From positions 1,762,501 through 1,826,500 of the forward strand of contig NC_013525.1 in the NCBI RefSeq assembly GCF_000025005.1: a stretch of DNA of 64,000 nt. Reading direction: 5' to 3'. Source of the DNA: Thermobaculum terrenum ATCC BAA-798 (GTDB taxonomy: Bacteria > Chloroflexota > Chloroflexia > Thermobaculales > Thermobaculaceae). Made by a program: the position numbers and the translations under genes. Below, piece after piece: positions 26,371 to 40,351 of the stretch. Below the pieces are notes generated by a model. It had not been told where the DNA came from and ran no database searches. It saw nothing but the letters and a program-made list of their open reading frames with translations. Within the stretch, counting starts at the first letter, position 1, and every line of letters starts with the position of its first letter.

Positions 26371-26469
26371 GGGAGCGGAAGGGTCCCGGTGGGTTCCGCG
26401 GTCTTCAAAACCGTTGGGAGGCTAGCACTGCTGGTCTCCGGTGGGTTCGACTCCCACGCGCTCCCGCCA
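26371..26469 (+). tRNA. selC: Selenocysteine tRNA (anticodon TCA)
   Basis: This 99-base tRNA includes an encoded CCA. The anticodon loop is CTTCAAA, so the anticodon is TCA and it reads UGA. The acceptor arms GGGAGCG and CGCTCCC pair. The eighth pair expected for tRNA-Sec would be G opposite G. The T arm is GTGGG-TTCGACT-CCCAC. The variable arm is long, with about nine pairs and a five-base loop. An enlarged D arm can be drawn, although imperfectly. These are the marks of tRNA-Sec rather than tRNA-Ser. It implies selA, selB and selD elsewhere; none is in the window. Confidence 0.88.
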
Positions 26470-35118: not shown

Positions 35119-36570
35119 CTAGTAAGCTCGTGCGAAGTACACTTTTACTTGTGCCTTGTTTCCACATCTAATACAAGTACCAGGATCTTCGGGCTGGGCC
35201 AAAGGCACCACTCTGATAGTTGCACGAGTCTCCTCTTTGACCGCAGCCTCACACTCATCACTACCACACCATCCTGCGTAGATGAACCCTCTCTTGTTAT
35301 CAAGAACCTCCAACATTTGAGCAACACTCTCACACTCAAACGTGTGTTCGTCTCTGAACTGCTTGGCGCGGTCGAACAGAGACTGCTGTATATCAGCTAA
35401 GGTTTGCTGCAGCCTTACAACAAGGTCGTTCAGAGGTACCTGAGATTTATCCCTATTGTCTCTACGCACAAGCACAACAGCGCTATTGGCAACATCTCTT
35501 GGACCAACCTCAAGCCTTACTGGCACCCCCTTGAGCTCCCATTCATTAAATTTCCAACCAGGAGTCTTCTCCTCACTCAGATCTATGTGCAGTCGGAAAG
35601 AATCTCCTAGAACTTCCTTTATCCTATCTATGTGCTCCAAGACCTTCTGTTTGTCTTCTTCGCTTCTCCATATAGGAACTACTACCACCTGAATTGGGGC
35701 AACTTTAGGAGGTATTATCAAACCCGAATCATCACCATGAACCATTATTATTCCACCTATGGTGCGAGTAGAGAGCCCCCAACTAGTGGTATACCCATAC
35801 TTGCGCTCGCCATCCTTATCTAGAAATGTTATGTCAAAAGCCTTAGCAAAATGATCGGCAAAGTCGTGACTAGTAGCAGACTGGAGCGCCCTACCATCTC
35901 CCATAAGTGCCTCTACGGTATAGGTCTCAGCGGCACCCGGGAACCTCTCAGAAGGAGTCTTGCGACCAGGGATAACCGGTATTGCTAGATCTTCCTCAAG
36001 GAACGACCTGTAGACCTCAAGCATAAGCAAAGTACGTTCTGTGGCTTCCTCGGCCGAAGCGTGTAGAGTATGACCTTCTTGCCATAGGAACTCAGCTGTA
36101 CGCAGGAACAGCCTAGTATGTAGCTCCCAGCGCACCACACTATTCCATTGGTTGATCAATATCGGCAGGTCCCTATAGCTCTGCACCCACTTGGAATACA
36201 TCTGCATTATTATCGCCTCAGAAGTAGGGCGTACCGCTAATCTCTCCTCAAGCTCTTCGTTCCCCCCATGTGTCACCCATGCTACTTGAGGATTAAAGCC
36301 TTCAACGTGCTCTGCTTCCTTTCTGAGTAAACTCTCAGGAATAAGCAGAGGGAAGTAGGCATTGACTACCCCTGTCGCCTTGAACCTTGCGTCCAATAAT
36401 TTCTGTATGTTTTCCCATATAGCGTATCCATAAGGTCTATAGACCATCATTCCCCTGACCGGGCTGTAATCAGCAAGCTGAGCCCCAAGCACAACGTCGT
36501 TGTACCATGCAGCAAAATCCTCGCTCCTCTTCGTTATCTTCTGCACATATTCAGAGCTAGTGCTTGACAT
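35119..36570 (-). CDS. proS: Prolyl-tRNA synthetase, archaeal/eukaryal type
   Basis: ProS charges tRNA-Pro. This is the short class lacking the bacterial editing insertion: motif 2 is near NQWNSVVRWELHTRLFLRTAEFLWQEGHT, and motif 3 is in WGLSTRTIGGIIMVHGDDSGL (cited in parts). The C-terminal zinc-domain Cys residues (CGSDECE, CIRCG) and the terminal Tyr (FARAY) match the archaeal type. The length is 483. A GGAGG Shine-Dalgarno precedes the ATG. A T-box leader lies directly upstream. Confidence 0.95.
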   Translation of the reverse strand: MSSTSSEYVQKITKRSEDFAAWYNDVVLGAQLADYSPVRGMMVYRPYGYAIWENIQKLLDARFKATGVVNAYFPLLIPESLLRKEAEHVEGFNPQVAWVTHGGNEELEERLAVRPTSEAIIMQMYSKWVQSYRDLPILINQWNSVVRWELHTRLFLRTAEFLWQEGHTLHASAEEATERTLLMLEVYRSFLEEDLAIPVIPGRKTPSERFPGAAETYTVEALMGDGRALQSATSHDFADHFAKAFDITFLDKDGERKYGYTTSWGLSTRTIGGIIMVHGDDSGLIIPPKVAPIQVVVVPIWRSEEDKQKVLEHIDRIKEVLGDSFRLHIDLSEEKTPGWKFNEWELKGVPVRLEVGPRDVANSAVVLVRRDNRDKSQVPLNDLVVRLQQTLADIQQSLFDRAKQFRDEHTFECESVAQMLEVLDNKRGFIYAGWCGSDECEAAVKEETRATIRVVPLAQPEDPGTCIRCGNKAQVKVYFARAY

Positions 36571-36599: not shown

Positions 36600-36898
36600 A
36601 GGTCGTAATAAAAAACCCGCCCTTCGAAGCGCAAGACTTCGAGGACGGGTTCTATAACTTCCCGCGGTACCACCTCGATTGGAGCTTGAAACTCCCACCT
36701 CAGTGACCAGCAAACGCTGATCAGCCCTTTAACGGGGGCAGCGTACTGCCTTATCGTCCATAAGACGCTTCGACAGAGGCTCCGGGGTGGGTTCAGCACA
36801 GCCTACTGTCCGGTTCTCACCATGTTCCGGATCTCTGTATTTCTCAGCTGGTGCCTACTATTCCCCTTCAGCGCCTTGTCTATATATTAGTTTTCTGA
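36600..36898 (-). promoter_or_regulatory. T-box riboswitch leader of proS
   Basis: The minus-strand leader has the ordered parts of a T-box. A stem I base is followed by GGGGAATAGTA. The apical loop is GGTGAGA (36815-36821). A candidate specifier, CCC (36789-36791), lies in GAACCCACC. The T-box itself is GGTGGTACCGCGG (near 36661-36674), and an intrinsic terminator follows. Uncharged tRNA-Pro would pair its 3' CCA with the TGG bulge and prevent termination. The specifier choice is tentative; the T-box core is not. Confidence 0.9.
36609..36652 (-). terminator. Intrinsic terminator of the proS T-box
   Basis: Arms 36614-36630 and 36635-36651 form a long stem with a short loop, followed on the minus strand by a run of six or seven T. 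The stem start overlaps the region that would be freed by antiterminator formation. Confidence 0.88.
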
Positions 36899-36941: not shown

Positions 36942-38675
36942 CTACGAAGCCAAAGATAGTCGCCTGGATCTCTTAGCCAAATCTATGAGTTCATCAGCAC
37001 TTTGCAGGGATCTATCTGTCACAGGCATACCACCAAGCATGGCTGCTAACTCATGTCTGATGCCCTCCCTGTCGAGCTTATCAACTCTTGTCGTTGTTAG
37101 GTTGTCCTGAATAACCTTAGTTATCTTGAAGTGTGTATCTGCGTAAGCAGCTACCTGTGCTAAATGGGTTATGGCTATCACCTGGTGATTACTTGCCAGT
37201 CCGGTTAGCTTTTCACCAACTATCCTACCACTACGACCACCAATGCCAACATCCACCTCGTCAAATACCAATGTGGGAGTGGTGTCTGCCGCAGACAATA
37301 CAGTCCTTATCGCCAGCATAATACGAGATATCTCTCCTCCAGACGCAACCTTAGCAATAGGTTTGAGCGGTTCCCCCGGATTAGGCGATACCAACAACTC
37401 TATGTCGTCAGCACCAGTTTGATCTATGCCTACCTCTGTCCCATCTATGGAGATTGAATAGTCAGAAGGTTGCTTATAACCAACTTTTATCTCGATCTGG
37501 GCATTGGTCATCAGCAGATCGTTTAGCTCTTGCTCTATCTTTCTACCTAAATCCTTGGCAGCTTTTGATCTTATAGAAGATAAATCTTTGGCCTTCTGTG
37601 CCAATTGCTGCCGAAGATTCTCAAGCTGGGTTTCCAGCTTCCTTATCTTTTCGTCGCTGTTCTCGATATCAGAAAGCTCAGCCTCAGCATTGTCCCGATA
37701 CTGGAGTATCTCCTCAATAGTAGCCCCATACTTTCGTTTTAGCTTGTTTATAAGATCCAGGCGTTCTTCAACCACCTCGAGCATGCCGGGATCAAACTCT
37801 ATGGAATCTCTATATCTACGAATACTAAGCGAGGCTTCTTCAACAGCAACAACCGCCTCAGATATCATGTCCAAATTAGAGGACAAGGAGTTGTCAAGGC
37901 GTACCAATTCTTCAAGAAGACTCTGAGCTTGCTGAAGCTGATCTATCGCACTTGTACTAGAGGAGTACAAGGACTGATAGGCATTGTCAGCTAGTTGAGC
38001 TAGCTTTTCAGCGTTAGCTAGCAAGTTCCTTCGTTTTAGTAGTTCTTCATCTTCACCAGGCTGTAGATCAGCCGAGCTGATCTCTTCAATCTGATAACGC
38101 AGCATATCGGCACGGCGTTCTGCCTCACGTTGACCGGAAACCAGAGCATCCAATTCAGATTGCACTTGCCTGATTTCGTTATACAGCTGGCTCACCTCAG
38201 AGCGTAGATCGATAGCGCCTGCGTAGTGATCGAGCATATCCCTTTGGGCGGAAGGTCGCAAGAGAACTAGATGTTCTGATTGACCAGTAATATCCACTAG
38301 ATTCTCGCCCAGTTGCCTTAGAAGAGTTACGGGAACAAGGGAGCCGTTGATCCTTGCAGACGATCTACCACTCGAGCTAATCTCCCGAGTAATAATGAGC
38401 TCCTCTGAGGGATCAAGCCCATTAGACTCCAGAAGTTCACTTACTTCCCTAAGTACACCCCCCTCCAACACGAACATAGCCTGAATAAGGGAGGAAGAGG
38501 CTCCAGTACGCACCATATCAGGAGACGCTCGACCACCCAACACAAGGTCAAGAGCATCAATTATTATGCTTTTCCCAGCACCTGTCTCCCCTGTGAAGGC
38601 GTTGAAGCCAGGACTAAAGCTGATGTTTATCTCCGAAATGATTGCAAAATCTCTGATATGGAGCTCAGCCAGCAC
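36942..38675 (-). CDS. recN: DNA repair protein RecN
   Basis: RecN is an SMC-like ATPase that acts early at double-strand breaks. The N-terminal Walker A is FTGETGAGKSIIIDAL. Two coiled-coil arms lie at about residues 150-370. The C-terminal signature VASGGEISRIMLAI and Walker B TLVFDEVDVGIGGRSG complete the ATPase head. The length of 577 is standard. It begins with a GTG and stands 60 bases after a strong terminator, so it needs its own promoter. No obvious LexA box was seen. Confidence 0.96.
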   Translation of the reverse strand: MLAELHIRDFAIISEINISFSPGFNAFTGETGAGKSIIIDALDLVLGGRASPDMVRTGASSSLIQAMFVLEGGVLREVSELLESNGLDPSEELIITREISSSGRSSARINGSLVPVTLLRQLGENLVDITGQSEHLVLLRPSAQRDMLDHYAGAIDLRSEVSQLYNEIRQVQSELDALVSGQREAERRADMLRYQIEEISSADLQPGEDEELLKRRNLLANAEKLAQLADNAYQSLYSSSTSAIDQLQQAQSLLEELVRLDNSLSSNLDMISEAVVAVEEASLSIRRYRDSIEFDPGMLEVVEERLDLINKLKRKYGATIEEILQYRDNAEAELSDIENSDEKIRKLETQLENLRQQLAQKAKDLSSIRSKAAKDLGRKIEQELNDLLMTNAQIEIKVGYKQPSDYSISIDGTEVGIDQTGADDIELLVSPNPGEPLKPIAKVASGGEISRIMLAIRTVLSAADTTPTLVFDEVDVGIGGRSGRIVGEKLTGLASNHQVIAITHLAQVAAYADTHFKITKVIQDNLTTTRVDKLDREGIRHELAAMLGGMPVTDRSLQSADELIDLAKRSRRLSLAS

Positions 38676-38741
38676 CTAAGAGTTCCCCACAAACTTGGTC
38701 TAAGAAATCCTAACAAGTTAAATATTATGTCGCAATAAAAA

Positions 38742-38766
38742 AGGTCGAGCTACTAAAGCTCGACCT
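38742..38766 (-). terminator. Second (constitutive-looking) terminator upstream of recN
   Basis: A 10-bp perfect stem (38742-38751 with 38757-38766) has a 5-base loop and is followed by six T on the minus strand. It lies 30 bases past the first hairpin and insulates recN from the minigene. Confidence 0.88.
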
Positions 38767-38776
38767 AAAAGAAAAA

Positions 38777-38823
38777 GGGATCACCGGAGATGATGACTAA
38801 GCTAGCCTTCCTCCGGTGATGCC
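38777..38823 (-). terminator. First terminator, competing with a leader hairpin
   Basis: The core stem pairs 38811-38820 with 38780-38789 (10 bp). One bulged C and three more G-C pairs extend it. It has a 21-base loop and is followed by TTTTTCTTTT. Its upstream arm is also the partner of the Shine-Dalgarno stem of the minigene. Confidence 0.8.
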
Positions 38824-38844
38824 CTTACTACCTGATGTGTCCAT
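38797..38844 (-). CDS. Minigene encoding a 15-residue peptide (unknown)
   Basis: The reading frame MDTSGSKGITGGRLA ends with TAG and is preceded eight bases upstream by AGGAGG. The Shine-Dalgarno extends to 12 bases, AAAGGAGGTGAT (38849-38860), complementary to the usual 16S 3' tail. An ATG six bases earlier would add two residues. The peptide is Gly/Ser-rich and hydrophilic, with no signal or membrane segment. It matches no family known to me. It has its own promoter and two terminators, and its codons overlap two competing hairpins. It may be a leader peptide, a signalling peptide, or a byproduct of an RNA switch. Confidence 0.55.
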   Translation of the reverse strand: MDTSGSKGITGGRLA

Positions 38845-38899
38845 GGGCATCACCTCCTTTACCCTAAACGGAAAACCTAAGGTTTTCTTAACTACTGGC

Positions 38900-38928
38900 A
38901 GCATATCAGGGGTTGAGTCCCATGTCAA
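38900..38928 (-). promoter_or_regulatory. Promoter of the minigene
   Basis: A perfect TTGACA (38923-38928) is separated by 17 bases from TATGCT (38900-38905). Transcription would begin near 38893, giving a leader of about 45 bases that includes a small GAAAACC/GGTTTTC hairpin. Confidence 0.75.
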
Positions 38929-38941
38929 GCAGATTCGCCAA

Positions 38942-40351
38942 TTAGAATACCCAGAAATCTCTTGCATACCTACGAGCAACAGGTTGAGCAAGTAGTATTA
39001 CCGCAACAAAAACTAGATAATACAGCACCAGAGACTTAGGTCCAACAATGAGCCTAAGTTCGCTAGCAGCAGATATTTCACTTATGGAGTTTGCTATATA
39101 TACGATTGCCAGTACGAATTTGCCAGTTAACCACCCAATGGCACTTCCTAAGGACGCCGATAACACTCCTAACACAACCGTTAGGACGGTAAGTATCATT
39201 TCCAGAGGAATAAGAGGTGCTACCAAGACATTCGCCAGTATAGCCAAGTGTGAGACCTTACCGAAATAGAAGATCAGTAATGGCATAGTGCTAGCCTGAG
39301 CTACAAAGGAGATGCTAACTGTTTCCCGAAGTAATTCTGGAAGACGAGCCATGGCCCTGGCCACCGATGGGTACAACCATATTATGCCAGCCGTAGCCAA
39401 CACTGAGAGCTGCATGCCTATATCGTAGATCGAGAAAGGTTGCAGGGCAGAGATAAGCAAAAGAGCAAAGCACAAGGACCTCCCGGAATCATTCTGACGG
39501 CCGATCCACCTACCCCAAAGGGATGTGACAGCCATCACGGAGGCTCTAACCACCGGGGAGGACATGCCCGATAAACCCATATATATTGGGACAAGAATAA
39601 ATGCAAGGCACATCGAGCCTCTTATGCCTATTAAGGGCCGAAGGAAAGCTATAACTATCAACACCAATATGGTTACATTGAAACCAGAAGCAACCAGTAT
39701 GTGTGAAAGCCCAGACTCACGAAAGTCCCTTTCAATATCTTCGGGAACGTTGCCGGCATTACCTAAAATCATGCTCTCAGCTACGGAAGAATAAGGATAG
39801 CCTACATAAGACCTAATTAGGGAAGACGTATTATTGCGAACCTTCGCCATAACAGATTGGAGATTCCCCTTATCTCTACTTACTACCTTGATGGACTTAG
39901 CAAATATCACCCCATGAGCACCTTTGCTCAAGGAGTATCTGAAAAGGAAACCATCCAGCTGATAGAAAGGCACTGAGCTGCCACTGATGTACAAGTGATC
40001 TCCCGGGGTCAGGTTTGTAATACTCCCCACTAACAGCCAGGTACCACTATGAGGGCTACTTAAGCTCACAAGTGCAGAATTAGAAACTTTATCCAATACC
40101 TTTCCACTGTACTCGGAGAATGGAGTATCATTGTTTGCCCAGTCAGCTCTAGAATAGTAGATCTCAGATCTTAGAACGCCTAACAGGGATGCAAGCATGG
40201 TTACTGCCAGGCAAAAATAAACTTTATTCCTAGTACGCCAAACAAAGGCCATAAGCATAGCTAAACATAGAGATATAGGTAGATAGTCCAGTTTGAAGAA
40301 GGTACCGAATACAAGACCTAATAACCACGCAAAGACGAAGACGTATATCAC
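38942..40351 (-). CDS. comEC: ComEC/Rec2-family DNA uptake channel (membrane part only)
   Basis: ComEC forms the inner-membrane channel for transforming DNA. About ten membrane helices are present. The competence-domain signatures are HILVASGFNVTILV, MGLSGMSSPVVRASVMA and DIGMQLSVLATAGIIWLYP. The N-terminal soluble part (residues ~65-170) is the OB-like DUF4131. The C-terminal metallo-beta-lactamase domain found in many ComECs is missing at 469 residues. The GTG start overlaps the comEA stop (GTGA). Confidence 0.88.
   Translation of the reverse strand: MIYVFVFAWLLGLVFGTFFKLDYLPISLCLAMLMAFVWRTRNKVYFCLAVTMLASLLGVLRSEIYYSRADWANNDTPFSEYSGKVLDKVSNSALVSLSSPHSGTWLLVGSITNLTPGDHLYISGSSVPFYQLDGFLFRYSLSKGAHGVIFAKSIKVVSRDKGNLQSVMAKVRNNTSSLIRSYVGYPYSSVAESMILGNAGNVPEDIERDFRESGLSHILVASGFNVTILVLIVIAFLRPLIGIRGSMCLAFILVPIYMGLSGMSSPVVRASVMAVTSLWGRWIGRQNDSGRSLCFALLLISALQPFSIYDIGMQLSVLATAGIIWLYPSVARAMARLPELLRETVSISFVAQASTMPLLIFYFGKVSHLAILANVLVAPLIPLEMILTVLTVVLGVLSASLGSAIGWLTGKFVLAIVYIANSISEISAASELRLIVGPKSLVLYYLVFVAVILLAQPVARRYARDFWVF

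Follow-up and report, generated by a model that had tools for sequence, protein, structure and literature searches.

The region described here lies in a window of 64,000 nucleotides, which is the whole stretch of DNA analysed, from Thermobaculum terrenum ATCC BAA-798 (NC_013525.1, positions 1,762,501 to 1,826,500). The relevant part of the genome report gives Thermobaculum terrenum YNP1 two chromosomes, of 2,026,947 and 1,074,634 bases (PMC3035366). On the minus strand of the window, comEC (38942-40351, Pfam Competence) is followed by a short element and then by recN (36942-38675, Pfam RecF/RecN/SMC). As read from the sequence, the whole element occupies minus-strand positions 38928-38736 and combines a promoter and a Shine-Dalgarno (SD) of 12 nt with a frame of 15 codons and a pair of terminators. 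An earlier note on this DNA had described a promoter of the form TTGACA-17-TATGCT, an SD, a frame with its stop and two terminators, and all of these are present on the minus strand at the coordinates that follow.

38900-38928, minus strand: sigma-A type promoter, with -35 TTGACA (38928-38923), a 17-nt spacer and -10 TATGCT (38905-38900)
38871-38887, minus strand: leader hairpin GAAAACC-TTA-GGTTTTC, from the T. terrenum sequence and fold only
38863-38871, minus strand: short hairpin CC-GTTTA-GG directly 5' of the SD, from the sequence
38849-38860, minus strand: 12-nt SD AAAGGAGGTGAT, complementary to the 16S tail
38845-38854, minus strand: arm A GGTGATGCCC, overlapping the SD and defined by complementarity to arm B
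38797-38844, minus strand: 15-codon open reading frame MDTSGSKGITGGRLA, ATG at 38844, TAG stop at 38799-38797
38811-38824, minus strand: arm B GGGCATCACCGGAG, within the frame, pairing partner of A or C
38777-38789, minus strand: arm C CTCCGGTGATCCC, 3' of the stop and defined by pairing, followed by TTTTTCTTTT in T. terrenum
38736-38766, minus strand: intrinsic terminator from the terminator scan, with its stem at 38766-38742 and then a T run

The T. terrenum promoter scores 10/12, and its -10 is preceded by TG (an extended -10). Pentaloop hairpins with differing stems were seen by eye before the SD elsewhere in the class; the folding energy of the leader, -3.2 versus -2.0 kcal/mol in shuffled sequence, is a weak result. 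The complete 169-nt RNA folds at -64.9 kcal/mol (z -5.6), with 0 of 200 shuffles as good. In addition to its complementarity to the 16S tail, the SD is complementary to a stretch inside its own frame, a point absent from the earlier note. The B:C hairpin of T. terrenum, formed by GGGCATCACCGGAG and CTCCGGTGATCCC and then followed by TTTTTCTTTT, has its 5' arm in the frame and the stop codon in its loop, and because TTTTTCTTTT follows arm C it is itself terminator-like. It is absent from the terminator scan list because its loop is long, and was read directly from the sequence.

The SD at 38860-38849 is the sole copy of AAAGGAGGTGAT in the window when up to one mismatch is allowed, with 0.37 expected. 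Five exact copies are found in the T. terrenum genome (two of the reversed pattern), so the 12-nt SD alone is not unique, and the proposal that it is unique to the element was rejected. Its exact complement ATCACCTCCTTT ends the 16S at 14 of 14 loci from seven relatives. The claim that the SD matches the full 16S tail is thus borne out, exactly, with the tail taken from these relatives and not from T. terrenum. In the T. terrenum genome, neither an RF00177 match (by a search that also missed 5 of the 14 controls) nor GTCGTAACAAGGTA was found, and rRNA is possibly masked in the sequence searched; two GGATCACCTCCTTT sites examined there are not 16S. As a separate observation, a 14-nt stretch, AAAGGAGGTGATCC, is exactly complementary to the 16S tail at two further sites (L230, G000:C1:425704; L231, G000:C2:205143). 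Neither has a start codon at SD spacing, and both precede frames resembling lipoproteins of sugar or peptide transporters. The two sites may be ribosome standby sites or another use of a full SD.

Two other features of the window were recorded. A T-box leader (Rfam RF00230, 99.3 bits) lies at 36638-36880 on the minus strand, upstream of a frame (35119-36570) that reads like prolyl-tRNA synthetase, and a selenocysteine tRNA gene lies at 26371-26469 on the plus strand, so that T. terrenum probably makes selenoproteins.

Distribution and genomic surroundings

Matches to a 206-nt blastn query were obtained in 26 of 61 genomes, T. terrenum included, and when read they are the same element, except for L034, a weak additional match in a genome that already had one. 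With 26 members as its basis, a covariance model matches 138 of the 158 genomes of the class (one class within Chloroflexota) at E 0.01 or better and 135 of them at 41.6 bits or more; among good class genomes, it finds the element in 89 of 93. There is usually one copy per genome; five of the 158 carry multiple matches exceeding 50 bits. At one place (G132:C533:5796-5949), two opposite-strand matches overlap by 52 bases, possibly through an assembly artefact or a palindromic duplication. The four good class genomes without the element are G001, G002, G114 and G116; relaxing the search pattern for these genomes, plus two of poorer quality, yielded six short frames, none with the architecture when inspected by eye.

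As a control, 199 Bacillota genomes gave a best score of 32.1 bits, with 30 matching at E 0.01, and the best three matches (L192-L194) are without the element's architecture by eye. Because Bacillota genomes give weak matches up to this score, phylum matches below 32.1 bits were counted only where the anatomy was read. In a 400-genome sample of the phylum, 109 genomes match, 53 of them belonging to the class (T. terrenum included). Fifteen of the 56 matches outside the class exceed the Bacillota maximum and are spread over six families, and several weaker ones show the full anatomy when read by eye. In total, 40 phylum loci were fetched and 26 or 27 accepted by eye, L082 being doubtful. Loss of the element in close relatives, which would have counted against the earlier note, was looked for, and the element is conserved. 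Its central proposal, a stand-alone minigene that is not due to chance, is strongly supported, with promoter, SD, frame and terminator conserved across the class.

The element appears to be previously undescribed. No description was found in the open-access literature, as judged mostly from listings, and of 4227 Rfam models none reached its gathering threshold over the element in the T. terrenum window or at ten loci (E up to 0.5); the matches at the ten loci fall below gathering and are at chance level only. Novelty thus rests on failed tests for known families and on the absence of a description in that literature, and whether the element is novel in kind depends on whether all conserved small ORFs are counted as one kind. 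Two other candidates were set aside: a substitute for tmRNA, since an ordinary tmRNA is present in the T. terrenum genome at 201.4 bits, and a viral origin, the 21-base core pattern having no exact match in IMG/VR contigs.

The genes that flank the element vary, and include recN, PIG-L, luciferase-like, formyl transferase, phosphofructokinase, enoyl-CoA hydratase, M55 peptidase and guanylate-cyclase-domain protein genes; a clustering of the neighbors, which includes spurious antisense frames, likewise has them differing. Since flanking genes differ between genomes, the element is taken to be an autonomous unit. Promoters scoring at least 10/12 occupy the corresponding position in 79 of 124 loci as opposed to 11 of 2480 shuffles, at a distance from -10 to SD of mostly about 38-47 nt (12-17 nt in eight loci). 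A terminator-like hairpin lies within 100 nt past the stop in 118 of 123 loci versus 28 of 123 shuffles, and the median distance from the first base of the stop codon to the stem of this hairpin is 32 nt. In one family (L172, L175, L182, L184), B:C is the terminator itself and its loop contains the stop, and the SD lies no more than 80 bases from the end of a convergent gene.

This setting bears on several readings. A leader peptide, as the earlier note had offered, is disfavored by the differing neighbors, by the opposite orientation of three of the eight downstream genes classified and by the frequency of the terminator-like hairpin. The related idea that it acts in cis, as an attenuator or leader for recN or for some other gene downstream, finds some encouragement in the leader-like anatomy (a short frame, exclusive hairpins and a terminator) and in the presence of recN downstream and co-oriented in L001 and L025, but it is highly improbable given that downstream genes vary and are often convergent, and that a separate terminator is present in those 118 of 123 loci; a leader of comEC or recN in particular was rejected, as neighbors are not kept across relatives. 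A signal peptide tied to the competence genes, also raised in the earlier note, fares no better. comEC adjoins the element in the T. terrenum window and in near relatives and not in most families, conserved linkage to competence genes is absent, and inspection of the peptide by eye revealed no export signal.

Of the possibilities for a free-standing RNA, a type I toxin-like mRNA with a metastable in-frame SD hairpin would follow the same logic as Helicobacter pylori aapA3, as outlined in the pertinent part of PMC6733600. This reading is very improbable, as antisense promoters of at least 10/12 are present in 0 of 123 loci (mean score 6.49 versus 6.78 in shuffles), and the peptides, with a mean GRAVY of -0.07 and just 12-24 residues, are not membrane-like.

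Some further observations concern the neighboring genes themselves. The T. terrenum comEC frame (38942-40351, minus strand) carries the Competence domain only, and a ComEC-type metallo-beta-lactamase-like frame lies upstream of the element in six loci (L023, L024, L033, L058, L143, L145). Three related genomes (L028, L104, L135) have another strong SD, with a frame of 18 codons, at a comparable position some 1.4-1.5 kb upstream of the element and close to a phosphofructokinase-like frame.

The short frame and its codons

The frame was compared across 125 distinct elements, obtained from the fetched loci by collapsing identical copies and by applying a filter for an SD and a frame of 8-30 codons, with L002-L008, L034 and L035 left out beforehand. 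L084 and L161 did not match the filter. Frames in this set are 12-24 codons long, and 14-16 codons in 111 elements, a range that leans on the filter because L161, a strong model match, failed it. In 105 of 106 class members, the distance from the A of the ATG to arm B is 20, 23, 26 or 29 nt, and insertions and deletions therefore come in threes.

The early codons are highly unusual. AGT makes up 194 of the 625 codons at positions 2-6 (31%, background 0.5%), and these 194 occurrences in frame compare with 0 and 1 in the other two phases. NGT codons as a whole account for 45% of these positions versus a background of 3.8%. The bias toward a final T is extreme among codons for Ser, Arg, Gly and Cys and mild among those for Asp and Asn, whereas His and Thr show none; a general demand for little structure would not on its own account for this pattern. 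The kept frame, the indels in threes and the phase-specific codons together argue that the frame is read. In the +2 frame of codons 2-6, 199 of 500 triplets (40%) across the 125 elements are stop codons, which may result from an A or G coming after NGU, or may be an independent feature.

If the frame is read, the peptide itself could be the product: an intracellular peptide of 13-17 residues that begins with polar residues, many of them Ser, the helices merely regulating its synthesis. Besides the kept frame, residues 2-6 are dominated by Ser, Asp, His, Lys, Arg and Asn, giving a polar, Ser-rich N-terminus written mostly with one codon, and G-[IV]-[TA] recurs in class peptides. However, this motif comes from the bases of arm B, and beyond the class B can be read in another phase (WASP in L073) with its pairing intact. 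The C-terminal residues vary freely, so that the peptide is not strictly conserved. Among Ser codons at positions 2-6, AGT accounts for 194 of 216 (background 9.7%), and the constraint therefore acts on the codon; Ser itself, as an amino acid, may nevertheless be constrained. On present comparisons, the peptide is not an obvious product, and a reading centered on it seems somewhat unlikely.

A different use of the frame would be to hold ribosomes: a ribosome would be parked, for storage or protection, by the 12-nt SD, a second GAGG and a hairpin abutting its front edge at initiation. In 78 of 125 elements, versus 14% in shuffles, the stop is preceded by GAGG at a distance of 5-11 nt, and B begins 20-29 nt past the A of the ATG in 105 of 106 class members, as such an arrangement would have it. 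But GAGG also sits in the upper B:C stem and may serve pairing, for which reason the two roles are not separable. The low-structure NGU codons suggest fast loading, and AGC and AGU were less affected than UCN codons in serine-starved B. subtilis (PMC3862929). Ribosome holding is, on this evidence, quite unlikely.

Two competing helices

Arm A, GGTGATGCCC, is complementary to GGGCATCACC in the frame (arm B), and B is in turn complementary to GGTGATCCC just past the stop (arm C). The two helices A:B and B:C are mutually exclusive, and the stop codon lies in the B:C loop. Pairing was counted in an alignment (A2) of 100 of the 106 class elements, which was fitted to B:C and hence leans to it; a MAFFT alignment (A1) gives the same picture. 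B:C is paired in 95.0% of 879 cells over the 100 class sequences of A2. Double changes occur at six of its nine pairs, in 75 cells, which is reached by 0 of 500 shuffles and approached by no slid register. At the level of sequence comparison, B:C covaries.

In A2, 98.8% of the 898 A:B cells pair. At its six central pairs (columns 26-31 with 87-92), 600 of 600 cells pair despite variation in B, where the changes are only C to U and A to G and each still pairs with A. One of these columns is the third base of a glycine codon and holds only C (78) or U (22), though A or G would be silent. The positions of A that are free of the 16S tail covary with B (GCTA/TAGC, GCGA/TCGC, GTC/GAC, GCGG/CCGC), and at two further loci the SD region reads GGTGGTG and the frame carries CACCACC. 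Arm B was located by its best pairing with A, which favors A:B in some tallies, so that the alignment-cell counts and codon shuffling are the fairer controls; ranked against frames with shuffled codons, A:B falls within the best 5% in 114 of 125 elements and B:C in 110 of 125. A:B is weak in one family (L172 and others). Overlapping a short frame as they do, the two helices would be mutually exclusive hairpins of the kind found in attenuators.

Predicted folding favors B:C, which is the stronger partner in 120 of 125 elements, and arm B pairs 3' of the stop with a probability above 0.5 in 92 of 124. A:B is the predicted state of the full RNA in 27 of 124, the SD often being paired with the leader instead. 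GGAGG is predicted to be unpaired at 0.28 in the full RNA versus 0.34 when the RNA is cut before C, and the 12-nt SD at 0.26 versus 0.16. Predicted SD openness does not separate the full from the C-less RNA, and the idea that C opens the SD at equilibrium was rejected.

Arms such as these could also act in trans. A dual-function small RNA would use A, B or C to pair with other RNAs, the frame keeping the RNA occupied or stable. The element is a stand-alone unit with its own promoter and terminator, and arm B resembles an anti-SD strand (CCTCC in some lineages), both of which are in keeping with such a role. It is unlikely all the same, as the arms diverge between families in step, as internal pairing predicts, and the frame and its codon phase would be needless.

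A possible switch and its comparison with known systems

That the element is a conserved, bistable, stand-alone mini-mRNA is strongly supported by these comparisons, and the predicted anatomy (promoter, SD, frame, phase-locked codons, both helices, terminator and independence of neighbors) is well supported. Present in 89 of 93 good class genomes and retaining its promoter, SD, codon phase, competing helices and terminator, it is very unlikely to be idle. The explanation that we prefer, plausible if still short of probable, is that it may be a mini-mRNA that is autonomous and strongly transcribed, that is conserved for the act of translation and not for its peptide, and whose initiation would be gated by a two-state RNA switch. 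We infer from the anatomy that it is transcribed and translated in cells, that a kinetic race takes place and that it has a role in sensing or buffering ribosomes.

In such a mini-mRNA of about 120-160 nt, arm A, with the SD, would either bind the 16S tail or be closed by the in-frame arm B, which could alternatively pair with arm C past the stop. In the nascent RNA, A would meet B before C is made, and unless quickly captured by a 30S subunit, the RNA would close its own SD. Upon capture, A would stay occupied and B would be left to C, and the RNA could then be loaded at a very high rate via its 12-nt SD and C-poor NGU codons. In sum, the 3' tail of 16S would compete with an anti-SD strand written into a 15-codon coding sequence, and the RNA would report on, or buffer, the small subunits that are free. 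Because equilibrium folding of the full RNA shows no open SD, the switch must be kinetic or ribosome-assisted, and the greater strength of B:C fits a race in which C later frees B. The ribosome-binding RNA that the earlier note had listed among its readings comes close to this explanation. A broader version, in which the element would be a housekeeping device at the level of the phylum that senses or buffers free 30S, with a stand-alone message reporting ribosome supply, is possible but doubtful. If translation itself is the function, the element would be a regulator whose mRNA is the instrument and not the template for a product. Such genes can be missed by gene finders and by RNA-family searches alike, because coding sequence and RNA structure share the same bases.

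Several known systems share parts of this design. The erm, trp and his attenuators and leaders place a short frame over mutually exclusive hairpins and have rare codons early in the frame. The element has all three features; unlike these leaders, it has no regulated downstream gene and closes its own SD. Among type I toxin mRNAs, that of hok carries a metastable SD hairpin. In the H. pylori aapA3/IsoA3 system, as portrayed in the portion of PMC6733600 concerned with it, the toxin mRNA has an SD-closing hairpin inside its frame. The element likewise combines a short frame, a conserved in-frame pairing that would close the SD, and competing later structures. However, the hairpin of aapA3 guards a toxin in that account, whereas the element is without an antisense promoter or a membrane-like peptide, and, unlike type I toxin mRNAs, it is near-universal and single-copy in the class, with an SD that complements the whole 16S tail.

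A parallel at the level of codon choice is provided by sinR in serine-starved B. subtilis, where, in the passages of PMC3862929 on this gene, UCN codons pause and AGC and AGU are less affected. Ser codon choice matters in both cases, but sinR is an ordinary gene with UCN pausing and the element uses AGU, the less affected kind. The Chloroflexi-1 RNA (Rfam RF01698), tabulated for Chloroflexus aggregans in PMC2864571, is like the element a candidate Chloroflexota RNA, and RF01698 matched neither the T. terrenum window nor the ten loci scanned. The Downstream-peptide/yfr6 RNA of cyanobacteria, in the entry devoted to it in the same paper (PMC2864571), is a structured RNA beside a conserved short frame with indels in threes; it sits in the 5' UTR of that frame, whereas the helices of the element include the frame itself.
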